Positions 9,155-27,141 of a DNA stretch of 34,374 bases are shown in pieces. Numbering within the stretch: position 1 is the first letter of the stretch; every line of letters starts with the position of its first letter. A program made the position numbers and the translations under genes. The notes beneath the pieces were generated by a model. The model was given only the letters and a program-made list of their open reading frames with translations. It was not told the DNA's origin and did no database searches. The DNA is from Sterolibacterium sp. (GTDB lineage: Bacteria; Pseudomonadota; Gammaproteobacteria; Burkholderiales; Rhodocyclaceae). The stretch spans positions 1-34,374 of the forward strand of contig JAGOVA010000027.1 in assembly GCA_018061005.1 (NCBI GenBank), written 5' to 3'.

Positions 9155-11572
9155 ATGAAGGGGGAGGCAATGCGAGATGGCGTGATCACCGAAGCGGATA
9201 CCTGCCGCGAATTCGTCACCCCACGATTGGTGGAGGCTGGCTGGGGAGCGACTCCGCATTCCATTGGCGAACAGCGCAGCTTCACCAATGGCCGCATCAT
9301 CGTGGCCGGTGGCAAGGTTCGCCGTGGTAAACAAAAGCGCGCCGATTACCTGCTGTACTACCGTCGAGACTATCCCCTTGCCGTGGTCGAAGCCAAGGAA
9401 ATCGGCCTACCTGCCGAAACCGGCGTACAGCAGGCACGCGAGTACGCGGAGATTCTCGGCCCCAAGTTTGCGTACGCCACCAACGGCCACCGCATCATCG
9501 AAATCGACTACACCACCGGCACCGAGCGCGAGGTGGATCGCTACGCCACGCCGGATGAGTTGTTTGCCCGGCTGACGGGAAGCACGCAGTTACCCAAGGA
9601 TTCATCGCCCCATCTGCTGGAGCCATTCAACCTCGTTTCTGGCAAGGTGCCGCGCTATTACCAGCAGATCGCGATCAATCGCGTCATTGAGGCCACCCTC
9701 CTTGGTCAGAAGCGAATTCTCGCCACACTGGCCACTGGCACCGGCAAGACCTGCGTGGCTTTCCAGATCTGCTGGAAGTTGTGGAACAGCCGCTGGAACC
9801 GAACAGGCGAACACCGCCGCCCCAAGATCCTTTTCCTGGCCGACCGCAACATTCTGGTCGATGACCCGATGGCGAAGATGTTCGCGCCCTTTGGCGATGC
9901 TCGGCACAAGATTGCGGGCGGCGACACCAGTCAGAGCCGGGATATGTACTTCGGCATTTATCAGGCGCTGACCACCGCCAGTTCAGATGTCTTCCGCCAG
10001 TACCGTCCAGATTTCTTCGATCTCATCATCATCGACGAATGCCATCGCGGTTCCAGCCGGGACGAAAGCGCATGGCGTGCGGTGTTGGATTATTTCGAAC
10101 CTGCCGTGCAGTTCGGCATGACCGCCACGCCGCTGCGCGAGGAATCGCGCGACAGCTACGAATACTTCGGAAATCCGGTCTACACCTACAGCCTGCGTCA
10201 AGGCATCGAGGACGGTTTCCTGGCACCGTATCGCGTGCATCGCGTCATCACTACGGTCGATGCCGCAGGCTGGCGGCCCAGCAAGGATGAGCTGGATCGG
10301 TATGGGCGTGAAGTGCCTGATGATGAATACCAGACCAAGGACTTCGAGCGTGTTGTGGCGCTTCGCTCACGCACACGAGCGATGGCCCGCCACCTGACCG
10401 ATCTGCTCAAAAGTACAGACCGCTTTGCCAAGACACTGGTGTTCTGCGTGGATCAAGAACACGCCGCCGAGATGCGACAGGAATTGATCAACCTGAATAG
10501 CGATCTGGTCAAGCAGTACCCCGACTATGTCTGCCGCGTCACCGCCGACGAGGGCGCGATTGGACTCACCCATCTGTCGCACTTTCAGGACGTGGACAAG
10601 CCCACGCCAGTCATCCTCACCACATCTCAATTGCTGACCACCGGCGTCGATGCTGAAATGGTCAAGAACGTGGTGCTGGCGCGTGTCGTGGGCTCACGCT
10701 CCGAATTCAAGCAGATCGTCGGTCGTGGCACCCGCTTGAAGGTGGATTATGGCAAGGAATACTTCAACATCATCGACTTCACCGGCACGGCCACGCGCCA
10801 CTTTGCCGACCCCGATTTCGATGGCGATCCTGCTCGTATCGAAGAAGTAACGGTCGATGAGTCGGGAGAGGTCGTCGAAACCGCCGCAGACGAAGTGACC
10901 GGCGTAGCAGAGCCCGAAGCAGAGTGTGTGGTCGAAACGGAACAGGGTGATGACACAAGCGGCAACGGCGAAATCATCACGGAACCACCGGCGGAACCGC
11001 GCAAGTTTTACATCGACGGCGGCGAGGTCGAAGTGATTGGCCATCTGGTCTATGACCTCGACACCGACGGCAAGAAGCTGCAGGTGGTCAAGTACACCGA
11101 ATACTCAGGCCGCGCCGTACGCACCCTCTACCCGACGCGCGAAGCACTGCAATCGGCATGGGTCAATCCCGACACTCGCGCCGAGGTACTACGCGAGCTG
11201 ACCGAGCGCGGCATCAGTTTTGAGGAACTGGCCGCCAGCAGCGAACAGCCCGACGCCGATCCGTTCGATCTGTTGTGCCATCTGGGTTGGAATGCGCCGC
11301 TGCTCACCCGCCGCCAGCGGGCGGAAGCTGCCAAACGTCAGGCTCAAGACCTGTTTGCCCAACATGGCGAGACCGCCCGTGAAATTCTGTCGCTGCTGCT
11401 CGACCGCTATGTCGAGCGCGGCATTTTGCAATTCAATGCGCTGTCCGAGCTGATGAAGGTGCAACCCTTCGACCGCTACGGCAGTCCTTCCGAAATCGCC
11501 ACCCGCCACTTCGGCGGCGTGCGCGGCATGAAGGACGCTGTATCCCGGCTGCAGACCGCGCTCTACCAATAA
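9155..11572 (+). CDS. hsdR: Type I restriction enzyme R subunit
   Basis: HsdR is the motor and nuclease subunit of the R2M2S complex; it translocates DNA and cuts unmodified targets. The 805-residue protein has an N-terminal PD-(D/E)XK nuclease domain (D64 in KRADYLLYY and E79-x-K81 in VVEAKE), superfamily 2 helicase motifs Walker A ATGTGKT (193-199), DECH (294-297) and TATP (323-326), the C-terminal helicase lobe with QIVGRGTRLKVDYGKEYF, an acidic linker (about 560-610), and a C-terminal region for M-subunit contact. The ATG at 9155 has GAGGGA upstream; ATG 9170 is an alternative with GGGGGAGG very close. hsdM follows after 15 bases. Confidence 0.95.
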   Translation: MKGEAMRDGVITEADTCREFVTPRLVEAGWGATPHSIGEQRSFTNGRIIVAGGKVRRGKQKRADYLLYYRRDYPLAVVEAKEIGLPAETGVQQAREYAEILGPKFAYATNGHRIIEIDYTTGTEREVDRYATPDELFARLTGSTQLPKDSSPHLLEPFNLVSGKVPRYYQQIAINRVIEATLLGQKRILATLATGTGKTCVAFQICWKLWNSRWNRTGEHRRPKILFLADRNILVDDPMAKMFAPFGDARHKIAGGDTSQSRDMYFGIYQALTTASSDVFRQYRPDFFDLIIIDECHRGSSRDESAWRAVLDYFEPAVQFGMTATPLREESRDSYEYFGNPVYTYSLRQGIEDGFLAPYRVHRVITTVDAAGWRPSKDELDRYGREVPDDEYQTKDFERVVALRSRTRAMARHLTDLLKSTDRFAKTLVFCVDQEHAAEMRQELINLNSDLVKQYPDYVCRVTADEGAIGLTHLSHFQDVDKPTPVILTTSQLLTTGVDAEMVKNVVLARVVGSRSEFKQIVGRGTRLKVDYGKEYFNIIDFTGTATRHFADPDFDGDPARIEEVTVDESGEVVETAADEVTGVAEPEAECVVETEQGDDTSGNGEIITEPPAEPRKFYIDGGEVEVIGHLVYDLDTDGKKLQVVKYTEYSGRAVRTLYPTREALQSAWVNPDTRAEVLRELTERGISFEELAASSEQPDADPFDLLCHLGWNAPLLTRRQRAEAAKRQAQDLFAQHGETAREILSLLLDRYVERGILQFNALSELMKVQPFDRYGSPSEIATRHFGGVRGMKDAVSRLQTALYQ

Positions 11573-11587
11573 CGAGAAACGCATCCC

Positions 11588-13429
11588 ATGGCCAAATCTG
11601 CCACCCAATCAGCAAAGACAGGCGAGAAAAAGACCCGCGCGCCACGCAAAGCAAAAACGCCGCTCACCACGCGTGAAAACCTGTCTGCGCTGATCGGCAC
11701 CGCCCGCAAGATCCTCCGCAAGGACAAGGGCCTCAACGGTGACGTGGACCGCCTGCCGCTGCTCACTTGGGTGATGTTCCTCAAATTTCTAGACGACCTC
11801 GAAATCGTGCACGAGGAAGAATCCGAGCTCGACGGAAAACGCTATCAGCCCATCATCGAGTCTCCCTATCGCTGGCGCGACTGGGCTGCTCGCGAAGATG
11901 GCATCACCGGCGATGAACTGCTGGCTTTCATTAGTCAGGAATTCACCGTGCGTGCCGATGGCAGTACGGGCAAAGGCCTGTTCGCCTATCTGCGTGGATT
12001 GGCAGGCGAAGGCGAAAAAGGCAGCCAGCGCGAAGTCATCGCCAACGTGTTCAAAGGCGTACAGAACCGCATGGTCAGCGGCTACCTGCTGCGCGACATC
12101 ATCAACAAGATCAACGGTATCCACTTCTCGGCCAGTGAAGAAATCCACACGCTTTCGCACCTGTACGAATCCATGCTGCGTGAAATGCGTGATGCCGCAG
12201 GAGACTCGGGTGAGTTCTACACGCCGAGACCGGTCGTGCGCTTCATGGTGCAGGTCACCGACCCGCGCCTGGGTGAAACAGTATTGGACCCCGCATGCGG
12301 CACCGGCGGCTTTCTGGTCGAAGCCTATGACCACATCGCCCCACAGGTGAGTTCGCCCGATCAGCGGCGCAACTTGCAACGCGACACACTCTACGGTCAG
12401 GAAGCCAAGCCACTGCCCTACATGCTGGCGCAGATGAACCTGTTGCTGCACGGGCTGGAAGCCCCGCAAATCGCCTACGGCAACACGCTGGATCGACGGA
12501 TCAACGAGATCGGCCACAGCGAGCGCGTGGACGTCATCCTCACCAACCCGCCCTTTGGCGGTGAAGAAGAAGTCGGCATCAAGGCCAACTTCCCACCCAA
12601 TATGCAGACGGCGGAAACCGCGCTGCTGTTCCTGCAGTACATCATGCGCAAGCTGCGCGTGGCCGGTGCGCCGGTGCCCGGTGGCAAGCCGACTGCACGC
12701 GGTGGCCGCGCCGCCGTGGTCGTGCCCAATGGCACCCTGTTTGGCGATGGCATCAGCGCCGTCATCAAGCAGGAAATGCTCAAGGAGTTCAAACTCCACA
12801 CCATCGTGCGTTTGCCGCAAGGCGTGTTCGCGCCTTACACCGACATTCCGGCCAACCTGCTGTTCTTCGAGCGCGGTGGCCCGACCGACACCATCTGGTA
12901 TTACGAACTGCCACTGCCCGAAGGCCGCAAGAAATACAGCAAAACCGCGCCCCTGCAGTTTGAGGAATTCGCGCAAGCAACAGCGTGGTGGAACAACCGG
13001 GAGGAAGGCCCGCAGGCCTGGCAGGTGGATTTCGCGGCCAAACGTGCTGCCGCCGTTGAAGCCGCCACGCCGCACTGGCAGCGTGCCGAAGCCGAACGCA
13101 ATGCCGCCATCGCCTTGGGCAAACCCATTCGGGAATTGGAGCAGGCCATTCAGGCTGCCGCCAACGGCCAAAAAACTGAGCTGCAAGACCGCTTGAAGGC
13201 GCTCAAGACTGAGCAGGCCGCCCACGAGCAGGCCGCCAAGGTTGCGCAGTCCGAGGGCGATGCACTGTACTGGCCGATCTTCAATCTGGATCTGAAAAAT
13301 CCGAACGCCAAGGCCGGGCTTGAGCATGCCGACCCGAAAGACCTGATCGCCGCCATGCGCAGCCACGAGGCTGAAGTCATGCGCCTCTTGGGTGAAATTG
13401 AAGCCTTGGTGGCCGAGGTACAGGCATGA
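11588..13429 (+). CDS. hsdM: Type I restriction enzyme M subunit (N6-adenine methyltransferase)
   Basis: HsdM methylates adenine within the bipartite site chosen by HsdS and is required for both modification and restriction. The 613-residue protein has a basic N-terminal tail, the HsdM N-terminal helical domain (about 28-170), GEFYTPRPV (208-216), SAM-binding motif I DPACGTGGF (234-242), catalytic motif IV NPPFGG (320-325), and a C-terminal coiled-coil stretch rich in Ala, Glu and Gln (about 480-560). It is longer than the classical 520-residue HsdM because of this C-terminal extension. Its stop overlaps the next gene by 4 bases (ATGA). It looks intact. Confidence 0.96.
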   Translation: MAKSATQSAKTGEKKTRAPRKAKTPLTTRENLSALIGTARKILRKDKGLNGDVDRLPLLTWVMFLKFLDDLEIVHEEESELDGKRYQPIIESPYRWRDWAAREDGITGDELLAFISQEFTVRADGSTGKGLFAYLRGLAGEGEKGSQREVIANVFKGVQNRMVSGYLLRDIINKINGIHFSASEEIHTLSHLYESMLREMRDAAGDSGEFYTPRPVVRFMVQVTDPRLGETVLDPACGTGGFLVEAYDHIAPQVSSPDQRRNLQRDTLYGQEAKPLPYMLAQMNLLLHGLEAPQIAYGNTLDRRINEIGHSERVDVILTNPPFGGEEEVGIKANFPPNMQTAETALLFLQYIMRKLRVAGAPVPGGKPTARGGRAAVVVPNGTLFGDGISAVIKQEMLKEFKLHTIVRLPQGVFAPYTDIPANLLFFERGGPTDTIWYYELPLPEGRKKYSKTAPLQFEEFAQATAWWNNREEGPQAWQVDFAAKRAAAVEAATPHWQRAEAERNAAIALGKPIRELEQAIQAAANGQKTELQDRLKALKTEQAAHEQAAKVAQSEGDALYWPIFNLDLKNPNAKAGLEHADPKDLIAAMRSHEAEVMRLLGEIEALVAEVQA

Positions 13430-14619
13430 CCGACCGCAGCACGCCAGTCCTGCCGGATCAGGCTGATTACGCCTCCGTTCACACCGACATCGTCGCTCTG
13501 CTGGAATCGGCTCGCCGCGCCGCCGCACGCAGCGTCAATGCCCTGATGACCGCCAGCTACTGGGAAATTGGCCGCCGCATTGTCGAGTTTGAACAGGGCG
13601 GGCAGGAACGGGCCGAATACGGTGAGGCCTTGCTGCTGCGCCTTGCTACTGACCTGTCTGCTCGTTTTGGCTCAGGGTTCAGCAGGCGTAATTTGCAGCA
13701 AATGCGTTTGTTCTACCTGGCTTGGCCGCCGGAAAAGATTTGGCAGACACCGTCTGCCAAATCTCCCAGCCCCCAAATTCGCCAGACACCGTCTAGCGAA
13801 TCTTCCGGCGCACCCATTTCCGAGACACTGTCTCGGAAATCCCCGGATCTACCCACCCTGGCCCAAGCCTTCCCACTGCCTTGGTCGGCCTACGTGCGCC
13901 TGCTCTCGGTCAAAAACCCGCAGGCCCGTGCTTTCTACGAAACCGAAACGCTGCGTTGCGGCTGGTCGGTGCGCCAGCTCGACCGGCAGGTGAACAGCCA
14001 GTTTTACGAACGCATCGCACTCTCGCACAACAAGGCGGCGATGCTGGAAAAGGGTGAAGCGGCTGAGCCCGGTGACACCATCACGCCCGAGCAGGCCATC
14101 AAAGACCCCTTCGTGCTGGAGTTCCTCAATCTCAAGGACGAGTATTCCGAATCCGACCTTGAGGACGCGCTGATCCAGCACCTCGCCGACTTCCTGCTGG
14201 AGCTGGGCGACGACTTCGCTTTCGTGGGCCGCCAGCGTCGCCTGCGGCTGGACGACAACTGGTTTCGCATCGATCTGCTGTTCTTTCACCGCAGCTTGAA
14301 GTGCCTGCTGGTCATCGATCTCAAAGTTGGCCAGTTCAGTTATGCCGATGCCGGGCAGATGCACATGTACCTCAATTACGCCCGCCAGCACTGGATGAAG
14401 CCCGGCGAAAACCCGCCCATCGGGCTGATCCTGTGCGCAGGTAAAGGCAGCAACGAAGCACATTACACGCTTGAAGGTTTGTCCAACAAAGTGCTGACGG
14501 CTGAATACCGGACGGCGCTGCCGGATGAAAAATTGCTGGCCGAGGAATTGGAAAAAACGCGGCGCGAGCTGGAAGCGCGGCGGATTGCGCACGGTGGTGA
14601 TGCGGAGGGCGGCGTATGA
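13426..14619 (+). CDS. DUF1016 (YhcG-type) PD-(D/E)XK nuclease embedded in the hsd operon
   Basis: The 397-residue protein belongs to the DUF1016/YhcG family, often found within restriction loci. The N-terminal domain (about 15-100; SYWEIGRRIVEFEQGGQERAEYG and FGSGFSRRNLQQMRLFY) is DNA-binding-like. The C-terminal PDDEXK nuclease domain holds FRIDLLFFHRSLKCLLVIDLK, with D283 and D298-x-K300 as probable catalytic residues. Between them, residues 104-142 form three 13-residue repeats, I-x-[QE]-T-[PL]-S-x-[KE]-S, encoded by palindromic DNA. The family alignment resumes at FPLPWSAYVRLLSVKNPQARAFYE. ATGA overlaps join it to hsdM and hsdS, so it is co-translated. Its biochemical role is not established from sequence; auxiliary defence nuclease is the best inference. 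Confidence 0.88.
   Translation: MTDRSTPVLPDQADYASVHTDIVALLESARRAAARSVNALMTASYWEIGRRIVEFEQGGQERAEYGEALLLRLATDLSARFGSGFSRRNLQQMRLFYLAWPPEKIWQTPSAKSPSPQIRQTPSSESSGAPISETLSRKSPDLPTLAQAFPLPWSAYVRLLSVKNPQARAFYETETLRCGWSVRQLDRQVNSQFYERIALSHNKAAMLEKGEAAEPGDTITPEQAIKDPFVLEFLNLKDEYSESDLEDALIQHLADFLLELGDDFAFVGRQRRLRLDDNWFRIDLLFFHRSLKCLLVIDLKVGQFSYADAGQMHMYLNYARQHWMKPGENPPIGLILCAGKGSNEAHYTLEGLSNKVLTAEYRTALPDEKLLAEELEKTRRELEARRIAHGGDAEGGV
13736..13840 (+). repeat. Three tandem covarying hairpins inside the DUF1016 gene (39-bp period)
   Basis: Hairpin 1 has arms AGATTTGGCAGAC (13736-13748) and GTCTGCCAAATCT (13752-13764), a perfect 13-bp stem. Hairpin 2 has 11-base arms at 13777-13787 and 13791-13801 with one mismatch (83/95). 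Hairpin 3 has arms ATTTCCGAGAC (13816-13826) and GTCTCGGAAAT (13830-13840), perfect over 11 bp. All loops are three bases (ACC, ACC, ACT). Centres at 13750, 13789 and 13828 are exactly 39 bases apart. The core AGACACYGTCT is constant, while the outer arms change between copies with matching changes on the other side. The spacers (12 and 14 bases) are not conserved. All copies are read in the same frame. Confidence 0.92.
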
Positions 14620-15764
14620 AGGCGTGGCCCAAAGTCGCCCTCGGCAAATTGCTCCAGCGTTCCGATGAATCTGCAGTGATCGATCCTGCGGCCGAGTACC
14701 ACGAAGTCACCATCAAGCTGTGGGGCAAAGGGGTCATCTGCCGGGGCAAGGTTTCGGGCAGCGATGTCGTGTCGGTGCGACGTGTTGTGCGCGCCAACCA
14801 GCTGATCCTTTCCAAAATCGACGCGCGTAACGGCGCGATTGGTTTGGTGCCGCCAGAACTTGACGGCGCCATCGTCAGCAACGATTTCCCCTCATTCGAA
14901 TTTCGTGACCCAGACCAGTGCAACGCGGCATTCATGGGCTGGTTGGTGCGGTCATCGCCCTTCGTGGAGCTGTGCAAGGCTGCCAGTGAAGGCACCACCA
15001 ACCGCGTGCGCATCAAGGAAGATCGCTTTCTCGATCAGCAGATTGCGCTTCCGCCGCTGACCGAACAACAAACCCTCGTCACCCGTCTCGACGCACTGGC
15101 CGAGAAAGTCCGGCAGGTCGAAGCGCATCTGGATGCCGTCGAGCGCGACGCCGAACACCTGTTGGCACTGCGCTTCCGCGATGCCATTGCCGATGCGCCA
15201 CTGCGACTGATGGCTGAGATCGCCCCGCTTGTACGTCGGGAGCAATCCATTGACCTGAATGGCAGCTATCCAGAGCTAGGCATCCGCTCCTTCGGCAAAG
15301 GGACCTTCCACAAGCCGCCACTGTCTGGCGGCGACGTCGGAACCAAGCGTCTGTACAGCATCGAACCCGGTGACCTGTTGTTTTCCAACGTTTTTGCATG
15401 GGAGGGTGCGATTGCCATTGCTCAGCCTGAGGATGCGGGTCGCTTCGGTTCTCACCGCTTCATTACCTGCCAAGCCAACCCGGAGCTGACGACTGCCGCG
15501 TTCCTGCGCTACTATTTCTTGACCGATGAGGGAATGCTAAAGATCGGCGAGGCATCGCCAGGCGGAGCTGGGCGCAACCGGACCTTGGGCCTGGAAAAGC
15601 TGATGGCCATAGAGGTGCCAATGCCCTCGCTGGCGGTACAGCAAACCTTCGACCGTCTGCAAGCCGAAATCGCCGCCCTCAAGGCCAAACACACCGCCAT
15701 CCGCGAAGCCAATGCCGCACTGCTGCCCGCGACGCTGGAACGGGTGTTTACCGGAGAGCATTGA
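14616..15764 (+). CDS. hsdS: Type I restriction enzyme specificity subunit
   Basis: HsdS recognises the two halves of the bipartite DNA target. The 382-residue protein has the standard two-repeat plan: target-recognition domain 1 (about 1-140, starting WPKVALGKLLQ), a central conserved helix (LPPLTEQQTLVTRLDALAEK and onward, about 145-190), target-recognition domain 2 (about 195-335, including GDLLFSNVFAWEGAIAIA and GSHRFITCQ), and a C-terminal conserved helix (VPMPSLAVQQTFDRLQAEIA and onward). It starts within the DUF1016 stop (ATGA) and its own stop abuts the GTG start of the SIR2 gene. It appears intact; the specificity cannot be predicted by eye. Confidence 0.93.
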   Translation: MKAWPKVALGKLLQRSDESAVIDPAAEYHEVTIKLWGKGVICRGKVSGSDVVSVRRVVRANQLILSKIDARNGAIGLVPPELDGAIVSNDFPSFEFRDPDQCNAAFMGWLVRSSPFVELCKAASEGTTNRVRIKEDRFLDQQIALPPLTEQQTLVTRLDALAEKVRQVEAHLDAVERDAEHLLALRFRDAIADAPLRLMAEIAPLVRREQSIDLNGSYPELGIRSFGKGTFHKPPLSGGDVGTKRLYSIEPGDLLFSNVFAWEGAIAIAQPEDAGRFGSHRFITCQANPELTTAAFLRYYFLTDEGMLKIGEASPGGAGRNRTLGLEKLMAIEVPMPSLAVQQTFDRLQAEIAALKAKHTAIREANAALLPATLERVFTGEH

Positions 15765-16722: not shown

Positions 16723-17664
16723 ATGAACAATTGGATTTCCCTCATTACAAGCCTTCCCACCGAAAACGCAACCTTGCGTCAGCGTGCTTGGCGGGCCCTC
16801 AAGGCATCCGGTGCAGCCGTCTTGCGGGATGGGGTGTATCTCATGCCTGAGCAGACTGACTGTCGTGCCACGCTGGAGGGGCTGGCAGCCGATATTCGCG
16901 AGGGGGGAGGCACGGCGTATGTGCTGCGGATGGCGGCATCCGATGACACAGACTTCACCAGCCTGTTTGATCGCAGCAAGGAGTTCACTGCTCTGCTGGC
17001 CGACGTTGGCCAGATCAGGTCAACCCTGACAGCCGACTCGGTACAGGACGCGCTGCGCCAAACCAGAAAGCTACGCAAGTCGTTCGCCAATCTTGTCGAA
17101 ATCGACTTCTTTCCCGGCGCGGCCCAAGGTCAAGTCGATAGCGCCTTGCGCGAACTGGAATTGGCCTGCTCTCGCACCTTGTCGCCTGATGAGCCGCAAG
17201 CCCAGACGGGTGACATTGCTCGCCTTCTGGCTTCGGACTACCAAGGCCGTCTCTGGGCCACCCGGCAACGCCCCTGGGTGGATCGACTGGCCAGTGCCTG
17301 GCTCATCCGGCGCTTCATTGATCAGCAGGCACGGCTGCTGTGGCTGGACAACCCAACGGATTGCCCGACAGATGCCCTCGGTTTCGATTTCGATGGTGCA
17401 AGGTTCAGCCATGTCGGCAGCCGCGTCACGTTTGAAGTGCTGGCGGCGAGCTTTGGTCTGGATCAGACCGCCGTGGCTCGCTTGGGGCTACTGGTGCACT
17501 ACCTCGATGTTGGTGGAGTACGGCCACCTGAAGCTGCGGGCATTGAAAGCGTGCTGGCCGGGATGCGCGAGAGCCTCTCTAACGATGACGAACTACTGCT
17601 TGCCGCGTCCAGCGTCTTTGACGGGTTGTTGGCCAGCTTCACGAAAGGAACCCCAACAACATGA
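16723..17664 (+). CDS. chrB: Chromate resistance regulator ChrB
   Basis: ChrB senses chromate and controls chrA expression. The 313-residue protein has an N-terminal domain (about 1-150, beginning WISLITSLPTENATLRQRAW and including the GVYLMPE strand, reminiscent of PaaX-like folds) and a C-terminal ChrB domain (about 175-310) with the signature RPWVDRLASAWLIRRFIDQQ followed by ARLLWL, GFDFDGARFSHVGSRVTFEVL and LLVHYLDVGG. The overlapping palindromes immediately upstream are the likely operator. The 3' end overlaps chrA by 4 bases (ATGA). It looks intact. Confidence 0.92.
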   Translation: MNNWISLITSLPTENATLRQRAWRALKASGAAVLRDGVYLMPEQTDCRATLEGLAADIREGGGTAYVLRMAASDDTDFTSLFDRSKEFTALLADVGQIRSTLTADSVQDALRQTRKLRKSFANLVEIDFFPGAAQGQVDSALRELELACSRTLSPDEPQAQTGDIARLLASDYQGRLWATRQRPWVDRLASAWLIRRFIDQQARLLWLDNPTDCPTDALGFDFDGARFSHVGSRVTFEVLAASFGLDQTAVARLGLLVHYLDVGGVRPPEAAGIESVLAGMRESLSNDDELLLAASSVFDGLLASFTKGTPTT

Positions 17665-19019
17665 ACAACGCATCCACTCCGGCGGAAAGCACCGCAACAC
17701 CGCCCGCCGTCAGTTTCTGGCAGGCTTTTTCCTTCTGGCTCAAACTTGGCTTCATCAGTTTCGGTGGCCCGGCCGGGCAGATTTCGATCATGCACCAGGA
17801 GCTGGTAGAAAACCGGTGCTGGATTTCTGAAAAGCGCTTCTTGCACGCACTGAACTACTGCATGGTGCTGCCGGGGCCGGAAGCACAGCAACTGGCCACC
17901 TATATCGGCTGGCTGATGCACAGGACTTGGGGCGGCATCGTGGCCGGAGTGCTGTTCGTTCTGCCCTCGCTACTGATCTTGATTGCCCTGTCGTGGGTGT
18001 ACATTGCCTTTGGTGAGATGCCCCTGGTCGCGGGTCTGTTCTACGGCATCAAGCCTGCGGTGACGGCCATCGTGGTGCAGGCCGCACATCGCATCGGCTC
18101 ACGGGCGCTGAAGAACCATTGGCTATGGGGCATTGCCGCAGCCTCGTTCGTGGCCATCTTTGCGCTCAATGTGCCTTTTCCTGCCATCGTCGCGATTGCC
18201 GCCGTTCTGGGCTATGTCGGCGGACACATCGTCCCCGATAAATTCAAGACGGGAGGCGGGCATGGCAGCGCCGACAAAACATTCGGCCCCGCTCTGATCG
18301 ACGACAACACGCCGACACCCGAGCACGCAAGATTCCGCTGGTCGCGTCTGCTGCAAGTGATCGTGGTGGGCAGCTTGCTGTGGCTGGTGCCGATGGGCTT
18401 GCTGACGGCATCCCTTGGCTGGGATCACACCCTGACGCAGATGGGCTGGTTCTTTACCAAGGCCGCGCTGCTGACCTTCGGCGGCGCGTATGCCGTGCTG
18501 CCCTACGTATACCAAGGGGCGGTCGGCCACTATGGATGGCTCTCGCCCACGCAGATGATCGATGGTCTGGCCTTGGGTGAAACCACACCGGGGCCGCTGA
18601 TCATGGTGGTGGCCTTCGTCGGTTTCGTCGGCGGTTATGTGAAGGCGCTGTTCGGCCCTGATGCACTATTTCTCGCGGGTGCGGTCGCTGCCAGCCTGGT
18701 GGCATGGTTCACCTTCCTGCCGTCATTCCTGCTCATTCTGGCAGGCGGGCCATTGGTGGAAAGCACCCACAACGATCTCAAGTTCACCGCACCGCTGACC
18801 GCCATTACCGCTGCCGTGGTGGGCGTGATTCTGAATCTGGCACTGTTCTTCGGCTATCACGTGCTCTGGCCCCAGGGTTTCAGCGACCATTTTGACTGGG
18901 TATCCGGCCTGATCGCAGTCGCTGCCGCCGTGGCCCTGTTCCGCTTCAAACGCAATGTCATCCACGTAATCGCTGCGTGCGCGGTCGTTGGGCTGATTCT
19001 GAAAACGCTGATCCTGTGA
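17661..19019 (+). CDS. chrA: Chromate efflux transporter ChrA
   Basis: ChrA exports chromate across the inner membrane, giving resistance. The 452-residue protein is the long two-domain CHR type. The first half carries FWLKLGFISFGGPAGQISIMH and MVLPGPEAQQLATYIGW. The second half repeats the pattern as FFTKAALLTFGGAYAVLPYV and LGETTPGPLIMVVAFVGFVGG. About ten to twelve hydrophobic segments are visible. A hydrophilic linker rich in His, Gly and Asp (about 195-225) joins the halves. It is translationally coupled to chrB and is followed after 8 bases by a second, broken chrB-domain gene. Confidence 0.95.
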   Translation: MNNASTPAESTATPPAVSFWQAFSFWLKLGFISFGGPAGQISIMHQELVENRCWISEKRFLHALNYCMVLPGPEAQQLATYIGWLMHRTWGGIVAGVLFVLPSLLILIALSWVYIAFGEMPLVAGLFYGIKPAVTAIVVQAAHRIGSRALKNHWLWGIAAASFVAIFALNVPFPAIVAIAAVLGYVGGHIVPDKFKTGGGHGSADKTFGPALIDDNTPTPEHARFRWSRLLQVIVVGSLLWLVPMGLLTASLGWDHTLTQMGWFFTKAALLTFGGAYAVLPYVYQGAVGHYGWLSPTQMIDGLALGETTPGPLIMVVAFVGFVGGYVKALFGPDALFLAGAVAASLVAWFTFLPSFLLILAGGPLVESTHNDLKFTAPLTAITAAVVGVILNLALFFGYHVLWPQGFSDHFDWVSGLIAVAAAVALFRFKRNVIHVIAACAVVGLILKTLIL

Positions 19020-19027
19020 GGTGAACA

Positions 19028-19410
19028 ATGCAATGGATTACCCGCGAGTGCCCGAAGATCGACCGCATTGCCTGCCCGTGGCAGAGAAAACCGGCGCGAT
19101 TCCCTATGACATCCCCGGCGTGGAATTTTCCCATGTCGGTGAGTTGTGCAGCTTCGATGCCTTCCTCTCCAAGTACCAGCTGGATGACCCAGCACTACAA
19201 CAGCTGGCAGTGATTGTGCGTGGTGCTGACACCTCGCGACTCGATCTCACGCCGCAGTCAGCTGGGCTCTATGCGCTATCGCTGGGGCTGTCGCAGACCT
19301 TCGCCGACGATCACGAGATGCTCAAGCATGGCATGGTGATGTACGACACACTTTACGCGTGGTGCCAGCATTGCCAGAGTGAAACCCATAACTGGCCACC
19401 GAAAATGTAA
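19028..19410 (+). pseudogene. Second ChrB-domain gene, broken by an internal deletion and frameshift
   Basis: From ATG 19028 the frame reads MQWITRECPKIDRIACPW, the normal start of a stand-alone ChrB C-terminal-domain protein, but then leaves the family pattern. A different frame carries on the homology: VAEKTGAIPYDIPGVEFSHV, then LCSFDAFLSKYQLDDPALQQ, ending CQHCQSETHNWPPKM at 19410. Family members have about 25 residues (LIRRFID... to the AEKTG region) between these parts. The junction falls at CCGTGG (19076-19081), consistent with recombination between short direct repeats that removed the segment and shifted the frame. A continuous 129-codon frame from GTG 19021 exists, but its first 19 residues are out-of-frame noise. 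Confidence 0.8.
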
Positions 19411-25983: not shown

Positions 25984-27141
25984 ATGAACGCTGCCCCCGG
26001 CCAACGCATCGATGACATTGAATTGCTCCGTGCATGCGCGGTGCTGCTGGTCGTGCTCGAACACGCGCACGGTAACCTGATTGCCTGGCCCAACGCTGCC
26101 TTCGACACCTTCAATCGCCACTTCAATGGCGCTGCCGGTGTCGATCTGTTCTTCGCCATCTCCGGCTTTGTCATTGCTCGCGTTCTCCTGCCACGATTAG
26201 CTGCGTGCAACAATCACGCGGCATTTATCAGAACCAGCATTGCCTTCTGGATCCGCCGCGCCTGGCGAATTCTGCCTTCCGCCTGGCTATGGCTGGCGAT
26301 CATCCTCACAGCGACATGGGGGTTCAATCGCTCAGGCGCGTTCGGCTCTTTTGATGCGACCGCTGCAGGCAGCATTGCTGCCGTGCTGCAGTTCTACAAC
26401 CTCCACTTCGCCCACTGTTTCATGAGCTACGACTGCGGCGCGAATTTCTTCTACTGGAGTCTGTCGCTCGAAGAGCAGTTTTATCTGGTGCTTCCCCTGC
26501 TGATTTTCCTCTGTCGTCGTCACCCCAGAGGGTTGGTCACCGTACTGATTGGACTGGTACTACTACAACTACTCACACAACGTTCGCTACTGGGGGTGAC
26601 TTTTCGCACCGATGCACTGTTACTGGGGGTACTGATTGCCATTGCCGCATCCCGCAATGGCGAACGCCGCCAGATGCCGAACCTCTTGGTACCGCCCAGA
26701 TTCATACGCTCACCACTAACCCTGGCACTGCTCGCCGCCATCGCCGCTGCGGCGACAAGCGACTGGACATTCGCCCCCTACCGTTTCGGTATTGTCGCCC
26801 TGCTTTCAGCATTCCTGGTCTGGCTGGCATCGTTCGATGCCAGCTATCTGATGGCCACCTCACCCACAAAGCGCGTCCTGCTCTGGATCGGCTCGCGCTC
26901 CTATGCCATCTACCTGATCCATGTACCAGCCTTCTTCGCGACGCGCGAACTGTGGTTTCGCAGTGCAGCGCCGGGCACGACCTTCGATGCGAGCTGGACA
27001 CTCCCCTTCGTGCTGTCAGCCGTCACGCTCATTGGCGTACTTGCCGAACTTAACTACCGTCTGGTGGAATCGCCGCTGCGCCAGCATGGCACCACCATTG
27101 CCGCGCGCTACGCGGCACGCAGCCCTTCAGCAGCCACTTGA
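25984..27141 (+). CDS. Acyltransferase-3 family membrane O-acyltransferase (first of three)
   Basis: The 385-residue protein is an OafA/YrhL-type integral membrane acyltransferase (PF01757), which usually O-acetylates surface glycans. It begins DDIELLRACAVLLVVLEHAHGN, containing the conserved R and H pair, followed by GVDLFFAISGFVIARVLLP and YWSLSLEEQFYLVLPLLIFL. About ten hydrophobic helices are visible, with SRSYAIYLIHVPAFF near the C-terminal end. An AGGAA ribosome-binding site precedes the ATG. There is no SGNH domain. Its stop overlaps a possible TTG start of the next acyltransferase, so the three are co-translated. Confidence 0.9.
   Translation: MNAAPGQRIDDIELLRACAVLLVVLEHAHGNLIAWPNAAFDTFNRHFNGAAGVDLFFAISGFVIARVLLPRLAACNNHAAFIRTSIAFWIRRAWRILPSAWLWLAIILTATWGFNRSGAFGSFDATAAGSIAAVLQFYNLHFAHCFMSYDCGANFFYWSLSLEEQFYLVLPLLIFLCRRHPRGLVTVLIGLVLLQLLTQRSLLGVTFRTDALLLGVLIAIAASRNGERRQMPNLLVPPRFIRSPLTLALLAAIAAAATSDWTFAPYRFGIVALLSAFLVWLASFDASYLMATSPTKRVLLWIGSRSYAIYLIHVPAFFATRELWFRSAAPGTTFDASWTLPFVLSAVTLIGVLAELNYRLVESPLRQHGTTIAARYAARSPSAAT

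Follow-up and report, generated by a model that had tools for sequence, protein, structure and literature searches.

Genes of the DUF1016/YhcG family carry short DNA palindromes that occur family-wide at a homologous position and in a homologous codon phase, and whose two arms change together at the DNA level. We tentatively propose, at close to an even chance, that these palindromes are a cis-acting DNA site in DUF1016/YhcG genes that is defined by its shape, that probably serves as a target of the encoded protein, and that has its arms matched by template switching together with selection. The palindromes are not described in the titles and abstract openings of the literature on DUF1016, YhcG, ORF6N and RhuM (a survey with subscription papers and bioRxiv preprints largely outside it). 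Letters that vary between species while the arms stay matched point to an apparently undescribed role of the DNA structure, or to a copying process by which the palindromes are rebuilt.

Three palindromes in the nuclease gene of an hsd operon

The window, which is the whole stretch of 34,374 nucleotides analyzed here, contains an operon with the gene order hsdR, hsdM, DUF1016/YhcG nuclease gene and hsdS (Table 1). In the product of the third gene, DUF1016_N (PF17761, residues 21-196, 144.7 bits) and the YhcG_C PD-(D/E)XK nuclease domain (PF06250, residues 223-375, 192.1 bits) were both recognized above the curated Pfam cut-offs, and residues D283 and K300 of the PD-(D/E)XK motif are invariant in a 55-row alignment, so that the protein is a predicted nuclease; it also matches the PADLOC candidate defence models PDC-S02. 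A sequence-based search for relatives of solved structure returned none that was convincing (best E 0.65), and a search of the protein against viral contigs returned no match. Genes of the DUF1016 family are also found in plasmids (464 records) and phages (16 records). As for the surroundings of the operon, a 188-aa ORF at 15765-16331 matches Dsr1 models (1275 positions) over their first 168 residues only and is probably a remnant, and the region 16723-19410 holds chrB, a chromate transporter and a second ChrB_C-like ORF.

Table 1. Palindromes and operon genes of the window
Feature	Position	Strand	Description
Palindrome 1	13736..13764, centre 13750		13-bp arms, 3-nt centre; encodes I-W-Q-T-P-S-A-K-S
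Palindrome 2	13777..13801, centre 13789		11-bp arms, 10/11 paired (one mismatch), 3-nt centre; encodes I-R-Q-T-P-S-S-E-S
Palindrome 3	13816..13840, centre 13828		11-bp arms, 3-nt centre with an extra A-T pair beside the centre; encodes I-S-E-T-L-S-R-K-S
hsdR	9155..11572	+	Context only
hsdM (N6_Mtase)	11588..13429	+	4-bp overlap with the start of the nuclease gene; context only
DUF1016/YhcG gene	13426..14619	+	397 aa; Pfam, PADLOC
hsdS	14616..15764	+	4-bp overlap with the end of the nuclease gene; context only

An earlier note on this DNA had described three hairpins with 3-nt loops in one reading frame, and both recomputation and folding against shuffled sequences confirmed them. The palindromes are spaced by exactly 39 bp, all three centres fall on codon position 1 of the ORF, and the predicted DNA folding energies are -13.1, -7.0 and -10.3 kcal/mol for palindromes 1, 2 and 3, respectively (equalled by 0 of 200 shuffles in each case). 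They encode approximately residues 105-139 and hence sit inside DUF1016_N, not in a linker between two DUF1016 domains where the note had placed them. A search for the core AGACACYGTCT with at most one mismatch, which the note had proposed for DNA outside the gene, gave four matches in the 34 kb (three of them exact), all at the three palindromes, against an expectation of 0.54 and with 0 of 100 shuffles giving four. When the whole window was scanned for palindromes, copies 1 and 3 scored 13 and 11, the mismatched palindrome 2 scored below 10, and elsewhere only position 26833 reached 10. The three copies differ from one another at arm positions 6-9 yet each is (nearly) self-complementary, as had been noticed for their outer arms.

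A homologous position and codon phase across the family

A search of species genomes gave 134 relatives. Of the best 80, which were retained, 69 contain the anchor motif; 66 of these 69 have at least one codon-phase palindrome of at least 7 pairs, the exceptions being L051 (partial), L053 and L070. According to record labels, the I-x-Q-T-x-S-x-[KE]-S unit is present in Proteobacteria, Cyanobacteria, Planctomycetes, Acidobacteria, Bacteroidetes and Propionibacteriaceae. Relatives that lack the insert have a single palindrome directly 5' of a conserved Trp motif, with very different letters (e.g., caattcgtgacgcaCtgcgtcacgaattg in L132, caattcgagagacaCtgtctctcgaattg in L113 and gaatttgtgcaacagGttgttgcacaaattc in L103), and yhcG of Escherichia coli K-12 has three palindromes, the final one being aagatttggcagacgCtgtctgccaaatctt. 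The general geometry at this homologous spot is a 3-nt centre with arms of 8-12 bp and the centre on codon position 1. The suspicion that the palindromes might be a family-wide element is thus borne out by DUF1016 relatives of several phyla.

For a broader sample, 275 records yielded 299 DUF1016 ORFs, of which 249 were near full length and 209 unique, and clustering at 80% identity left 130 genes, with L001 (a relative of 95% identity) standing for the window gene. The Trp motif was recognized in 116 of them and unrecognized in the other 14. In 56 of the 116 the palindrome centre lies exactly 6 codons before the Trp; in the remainder it is farther away, mostly with inserts, except for four genes without a palindrome. 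A best score of at least 8 was reached by 111 of the 130 genes, with 107 of the 111 palindromes at domain residues 40-150 and 105 having an odd centre on codon position 1, and the other 19 genes have no palindrome scoring at least 8 anywhere. The fixed core and the strict 39-bp period reported by the earlier note hold for the window gene and not for the family: 83 distinct 13-nt cores were counted in the 112 genes where a palindrome precedes the Trp motif, which indicates that shape is kept and not sequence, although cores do recur within DUF1016 subfamilies; and 39 bp is the commonest spacing between copies in the 130 non-redundant genes (16 of 43 spacings), next to 30, 36, 48 and others.

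Arm pairing at the DNA level

To separate DNA from protein, synonymous codons were permuted within each gene with the protein kept. A score of at least 11 was found in 57 of the 130 genes compared with 8 of 5200 permuted versions, and a score of at least 13 in 24 genes compared with 0 of 5200. Protein-level selection alone was rejected on the strength of these permutations (for DUF1016 as well as for the ORF6N and RhuM genes described below) and of an ORF6N core that is read in two codon phases. Palindromes scoring at least 11 are also concentrated in the family, with 57 inside DUF1016 ORFs (0.371/kb) compared with 6 in 377 kb of flanking DNA (0.016/kb), and two of the latter fall in ORFs of at least 150 codons.

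Sliding the partner by 1-3 bases lowers pairing from 0.904 to 0.22-0.29. In the 128 best DUF1016 sites, pairing extends to d=12-13; the values of this set lean upward, as do those of the other selected sets, since the 128 sites are the best centre of each gene, and the sets of 167 copies, ORF6N and RhuM comprise only palindromes above a score. Because choosing the best centre inflates pairing, we added an unselected set of 51 insert-less genes, picked by protein spacing alone from 106 genes with both motifs, in which the codon six before the Trp (W-6) was examined. Watson-Crick pairs made up 460 of 561 at W-6, compared with 17-32% at the 12 remaining centres between W-9 and W+3. The pairs d=2-9 are matched at 0.82-0.96 (composition expectation 0.36-0.58), whereas the outer pairs d=10-12 are matched at 0.53-0.73, near their expectation of 0.49-0.64, so that the certain covarying arm in insert-less genes is 8 bp. 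The pair beside the centre is weakly matched both in the 128 sites (0.63 vs 0.49 expected) and in the 51 genes (0.75 vs 0.49), as expected for a 3-nt tip that is mostly open, though not fully unpaired; the value of the 51 genes is less typical of an open tip. Compensatory change, as proposed from the window alone, is hence real, family-wide and located at the DNA level, judging from the codon permutation, the unselected 51 genes and the pairs of relatives considered below.

The remaining mismatches bear on whether the structure acts as RNA. A hairpin in the mRNA, for expression tuning, RNA processing or ribosome pausing, would be in keeping with strong hairpins that would be present in the transcript. 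G-T mismatches, however, are no commoner than A-C mismatches, which argues against such a hairpin because an mRNA stem should favour G-U: the 128 DUF1016 sites have 16 G-T and 23 A-C at d=2-12 (p=0.34), the unselected 51 genes 7 and 15, an earlier count of 167 unique copies 26 and 46, ORF6N 7 and 14, and RhuM 1 and 6. Pooling the 128 DUF1016 sites, ORF6N and RhuM gives 24 G-T vs 43 A-C (p=0.027), which is the wrong direction for an mRNA stem, and we regard this explanation as very unlikely. The slight excess of A-C on the coding strand looks as if a hairpin of the template strand tolerated wobble; it is weak and possibly reflects codon constraints. The idea that mRNA structure tunes the hsdM-to-hsdS ratio loses ground for the same reason and also because hsd genes are often undetected nearby. 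They were detected next to 34 of the 80 close relatives (the best 80 of 134), 31 of 188 other DUF1016 loci (including repeats of the same gene), 3 of 60 ORF6N loci and 3 of 30 RhuM loci, all of which are minimum counts given the short flanks and queries derived from the window. Linkage to an hsd operon was accordingly rejected as a general common cause of the palindromes.

Similar palindromes in ORF6N and RhuM genes

A match in the flanking-DNA control led to ORF6N (PF10543), a DNA-binding domain, in which 27 of 52 unique ORFs score at least 11 compared with 7 of 1040 permuted versions. One group (e.g., L286) translates the ORF6N core GGTCACAA-n-TTGTGACC into L-R-S-Q-x-V-T-S, and another (e.g., L299) uses a different codon phase and obtains L-V-T-T-C-D-R-F or similar, which implies that it is the DNA that is conserved and not the protein. 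Another match led to RhuM (PF13310), with 17 of 27 genes scoring at least 11 compared with 0 of 540 permuted versions; of its 26 unique palindromes, 24 are centred on codon position 3. The palindromes of both families differ from those of DUF1016 in sequence and in codon phase. Both sets are unique but unclustered, and their counts are less independent than those of the 130 DUF1016 genes. The three families resemble one another in geometry without being identical. According to the selected sets, the paired positions are d=2-12/13 for DUF1016 and d=2-13 for ORF6N, with weaker pairing up to 15 in the latter; for RhuM they are d=3-12, since d=2 is paired at only 0.65.

A possible fourth palindrome family is represented by a gene on the minus strand of L333 (plus-strand coordinates ~80-420), which we take to be terminase-small-subunit-like. 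It has eight 13-residue repeats of the LDKNDSYQ type, in which three palindromes score at least 7 at steps of 78 and 117 bp (multiples of 39). Strong palindromes were also seen outside recognized genes near DUF1016 genes (L049:2898, L086:747 and L131:1797); the one at L049:2898 resembles the RhuM type and may be the remnant of a gene.

These data are relevant to a symmetric intragenic operator, in which a dimer of the encoded protein would bind a sequence-specific palindrome in its own gene for autoregulation. The ORF6N core TCACAA-n-TTGTGA is fairly constant, and the recurrent cores of DUF1016 subfamilies would agree with such an operator. On the other hand, variable positions of an operator should lose complementarity, and arm positions 6-9 of the window copies did not; weak pairing beside the centre and the diversity of cores (83) also suit a fold-back better. 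With letters free, complementarity kept and three differing copies in one gene, recognition by sequence only is excluded as the full explanation, and we consider the operator rather improbable.

Escherichia coli alleles and copies elsewhere in genomes

The strict pattern was sought in 369 genomes of the class and matched in two, both times in DUF1016 genes. A search of the window's own genome with CAGACANNGTCTG gave two matches, one of which is beyond the window, and the reversed control gave one. Copies outside the DUF1016 gene were found upstream of 7 and downstream of 8 of 127 genes, compared with 12.8 matches with random cores. Outside E. coli and L134, the number of extragenic copies is therefore close to chance, and a regulon of sites was not seen in these searches.

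In E. coli, genomes with a match have it at a median of two and a maximum of four places, and three places that were inspected lie at the gltD-nanQ locus. At a permissive cut-off, 5341 E. coli genomes match the 33-nt palindrome compared with 4417 matching yhcG. A non-coding palindrome of the same length lies 27 bp 3' of the yhcG stop codon and has two forms among E. coli, CGAATTCTGCAGAC..GTCTGCAGAATC vs CGAATTCTCCAGAC..GTCTGGAGAATC (L180, L182), with both arms changed. In K-12-type strains, a yhcG-type palindrome preceded by GAGG and ATG is located directly 3' of gltD (L365:1618-1660), on the left border of the gltF-yhcF cluster; in L175, gltD adjoins yhcG and the palindrome is absent. Nine of 13 E. 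coli yhcG alleles have three palindrome units, two have two and two have one. One of the one-unit alleles, from O157:H7, is shorter by 78 bp and in frame; the other, shorter by 80 bp, carries a frameshift annotation. Such variation in unit number lends partial support to the slippage device that the earlier note had listed among possible roles.

Two of the nine three-unit alleles are of the truncated E. coli B type, in which yhcG ends exactly at the 3' edge of the third palindrome (L169:4001-4870) and is followed by a 102-aa ORF annotated as a transposase. This junction is present in ~720 E. coli genomes, E. coli B included. Since they have identical sequence in common, a single ancestral event is suggested, and the edge of palindrome 3 was not counted as evidence for a breakpoint.

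A mobile palindromic element, REP-like or similar to the Rickettsia palindromic elements, that had inserted in these genes might account for the related E. coli copies that follow yhcG and (in K-12-type strains) gltD, and for the variable number of units. However, both matches in the 369 genomes are in DUF1016 genes, E. coli genomes have few places, and the position is homologous and not scattered, so we give little credence to this alternative.

Comparison with known systems

REP palindromes have hundreds of intergenic copies and are associated with RAYT transposases, HUH enzymes that cut nucleic acid. The DUF1016 palindromes are likewise short, tied to the gene of an enzyme that (here by prediction) cuts nucleic acid, and represented in E. 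coli by a copy beside yhcG; they differ in being inside the gene, in their few copies (at most four places in E. coli) and in a product that is PD-(D/E)XK by Pfam, not HUH. The pac site of phages lies inside the gene of the terminase small subunit, whose product recognizes it, and lac O2 is an intragenic operator. In these cases, too, the DNA site of a protein is within a gene, recognition being putative for the DUF1016 palindrome; pac and lac O2 are defined by sequence, whereas in the DUF1016 palindromes sequence is free and self-complementarity is kept.

Rickettsia palindromic elements, ~100-150 nt long and located in coding, RNA and intergenic sequence, are another case of palindromes that lie in bacterial genes and are translated in frame (PMC4316617). 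Unlike them, the DUF1016 palindromes have a fixed position, and dispersal was not found in the 369 genomes of the class. The Rickettsia elements lose arm identity over time, according to PMC6649704, whereas the DUF1016 palindromes keep it. The same paper describes perfect, matched inverted repeats in functional protein-coding genes of Nematomorpha mitochondria, for which template switching is discussed as here; those palindromes are up to 284 bp long, scattered, and gained or lost between species (PMC6649704), while those of DUF1016 are 25-29 bp long and occupy one homologous position, mostly in one codon phase, across bacterial phyla. Template switching in yeast genes (PMC8604942) and in stems of RNA genes (PMC8794818) resembles the process proposed here in that paired changes arise in one event; spacers are inverted there. 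Homogenization of arms by template switching is a general process and alone predicts no family-specific conserved site.

Paired arm changes between relatives

In place of a tree-based test, relatives were compared in pairs. Among 39 disjoint nearest pairs with at least 70% identity of the nuclease domain, there were 83 pair positions where both sides had changed and pairing was kept, 43 where one side had changed, and 13 where both sides had changed but the two relatives are not both paired, a comparison in which different copies may be set against each other in multi-copy genes. Restricted to single-copy genes, there were 14 paired vs 17 one-sided changes at 85-100% identity (20 pairs), 27 vs 19 at 70-85% (16 pairs) and 33 vs 23 at 55-70% (13 pairs). 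The tip differs in 32 of 54 single-copy pairs and is exactly inverted in 6 of these 32, and tips occur in both orientations in the 128 sites (ACT 33/AGT 11, GCT 13/AGC 11, GCC 13/GGC 12, ACC 10/GGT 6). Of the 39 differences (in 1113 sites) between two E. coli yhcG alleles, five fall in the second palindrome, and a paired change of the arms is among them.

The paired changes could be due to template switching and nothing else. The main rival to our proposal is that these are function-free, self-perpetuating coding palindromes, in which one arm is copied onto the other, the tip is inverted occasionally, and persistence is a historical accident. In coding genes of yeast, template switching makes arms alike and turns spacers around (PMC8604942); stems can be both created and maintained by it (PMC8794818), and it is discussed as one possible mechanism for the coding palindromes of Nematomorpha (PMC6649704). 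The process is also treated in PMC7202029. Consistent with this rival, single changes between close relatives are roughly equalled or outnumbered by paired ones, tips are found in both orientations, and G-T and A-C mismatches are similar. It nevertheless leaves unexplained why one homologous position and phase is kept across phyla, why a similar geometry that is rare in flanking ORFs occurs in three unrelated families, and why E. coli has a non-coding copy of the same length, and tip inversion does not appear to be a dominant signature. We consider it possible but somewhat unlikely. Selection on structure and a copying mechanism that regenerates palindromes, the pair of explanations offered by the earlier note, are accordingly the two still standing.

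A putative fold-back site and its implications

The reading that we prefer, a shape-defined site on which the encoded protein probably acts, would combine both processes. The site would fold back into a hairpin or cruciform, with 3 nt in the tip and 8-12 bp in the arms, at one fixed place in the gene, and the extra copies in some subfamilies may be tandem expansions of it. Paired changes at short distance suggest that template switching supplies the changes, which would arise largely in one step during replication, across the hairpin. The homologous position and phase across phyla, the three unrelated families and the non-coding E. coli copy suggest that function keeps the site, and selection might do so because something recognizes the fold-back. 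The most likely recognizer may be the encoded protein itself, considering that a cruciform is a four-way junction and that low-scoring fold-recognition predictions liken the nuclease domain of YhcG to YraN and to archaeal Holliday-junction resolvases (PMC1189080). Deletion of yhcG is synthetic lethal with hypomorphic alleles of dnaB, dnaN and parE (PMC2672614). From the resolvase-like prediction and the synthetic lethality together, our guess is that fold-back DNA, including that of its own gene, may be what YhcG acts on. A likely use would be self-regulation or self-targeting of that gene; a target of the nuclease itself was among the possible roles in the earlier note. A wider version, in which several families of DNA-acting or mobile-type genes (DUF1016/YhcG, ORF6N, RhuM and perhaps others) each hold a shape-defined fold-back site recognized by the encoded protein or by a shared partner, is in our opinion possible but somewhat unlikely.

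If the palindromes are functional, the same bases would encode a protein and a DNA shape on which that protein or a partner acts; this would be compensatory evolution inside coding DNA across phyla and would provide a handle on the function of YhcG, ORF6N and RhuM. Should recognition by the own protein or a shared partner be true, site and protein would travel as a unit, allowing self-regulation or self-targeted recombination with a specificity that outlives sequence drift. If only template switching is involved, the palindromes would be a natural record of how proteins have been rewritten by hairpin-templated mutation over very long periods, and covariation within coding DNA could no longer be taken as proof of function. 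Either way, the question can be tested in yhcG of E. coli K-12.
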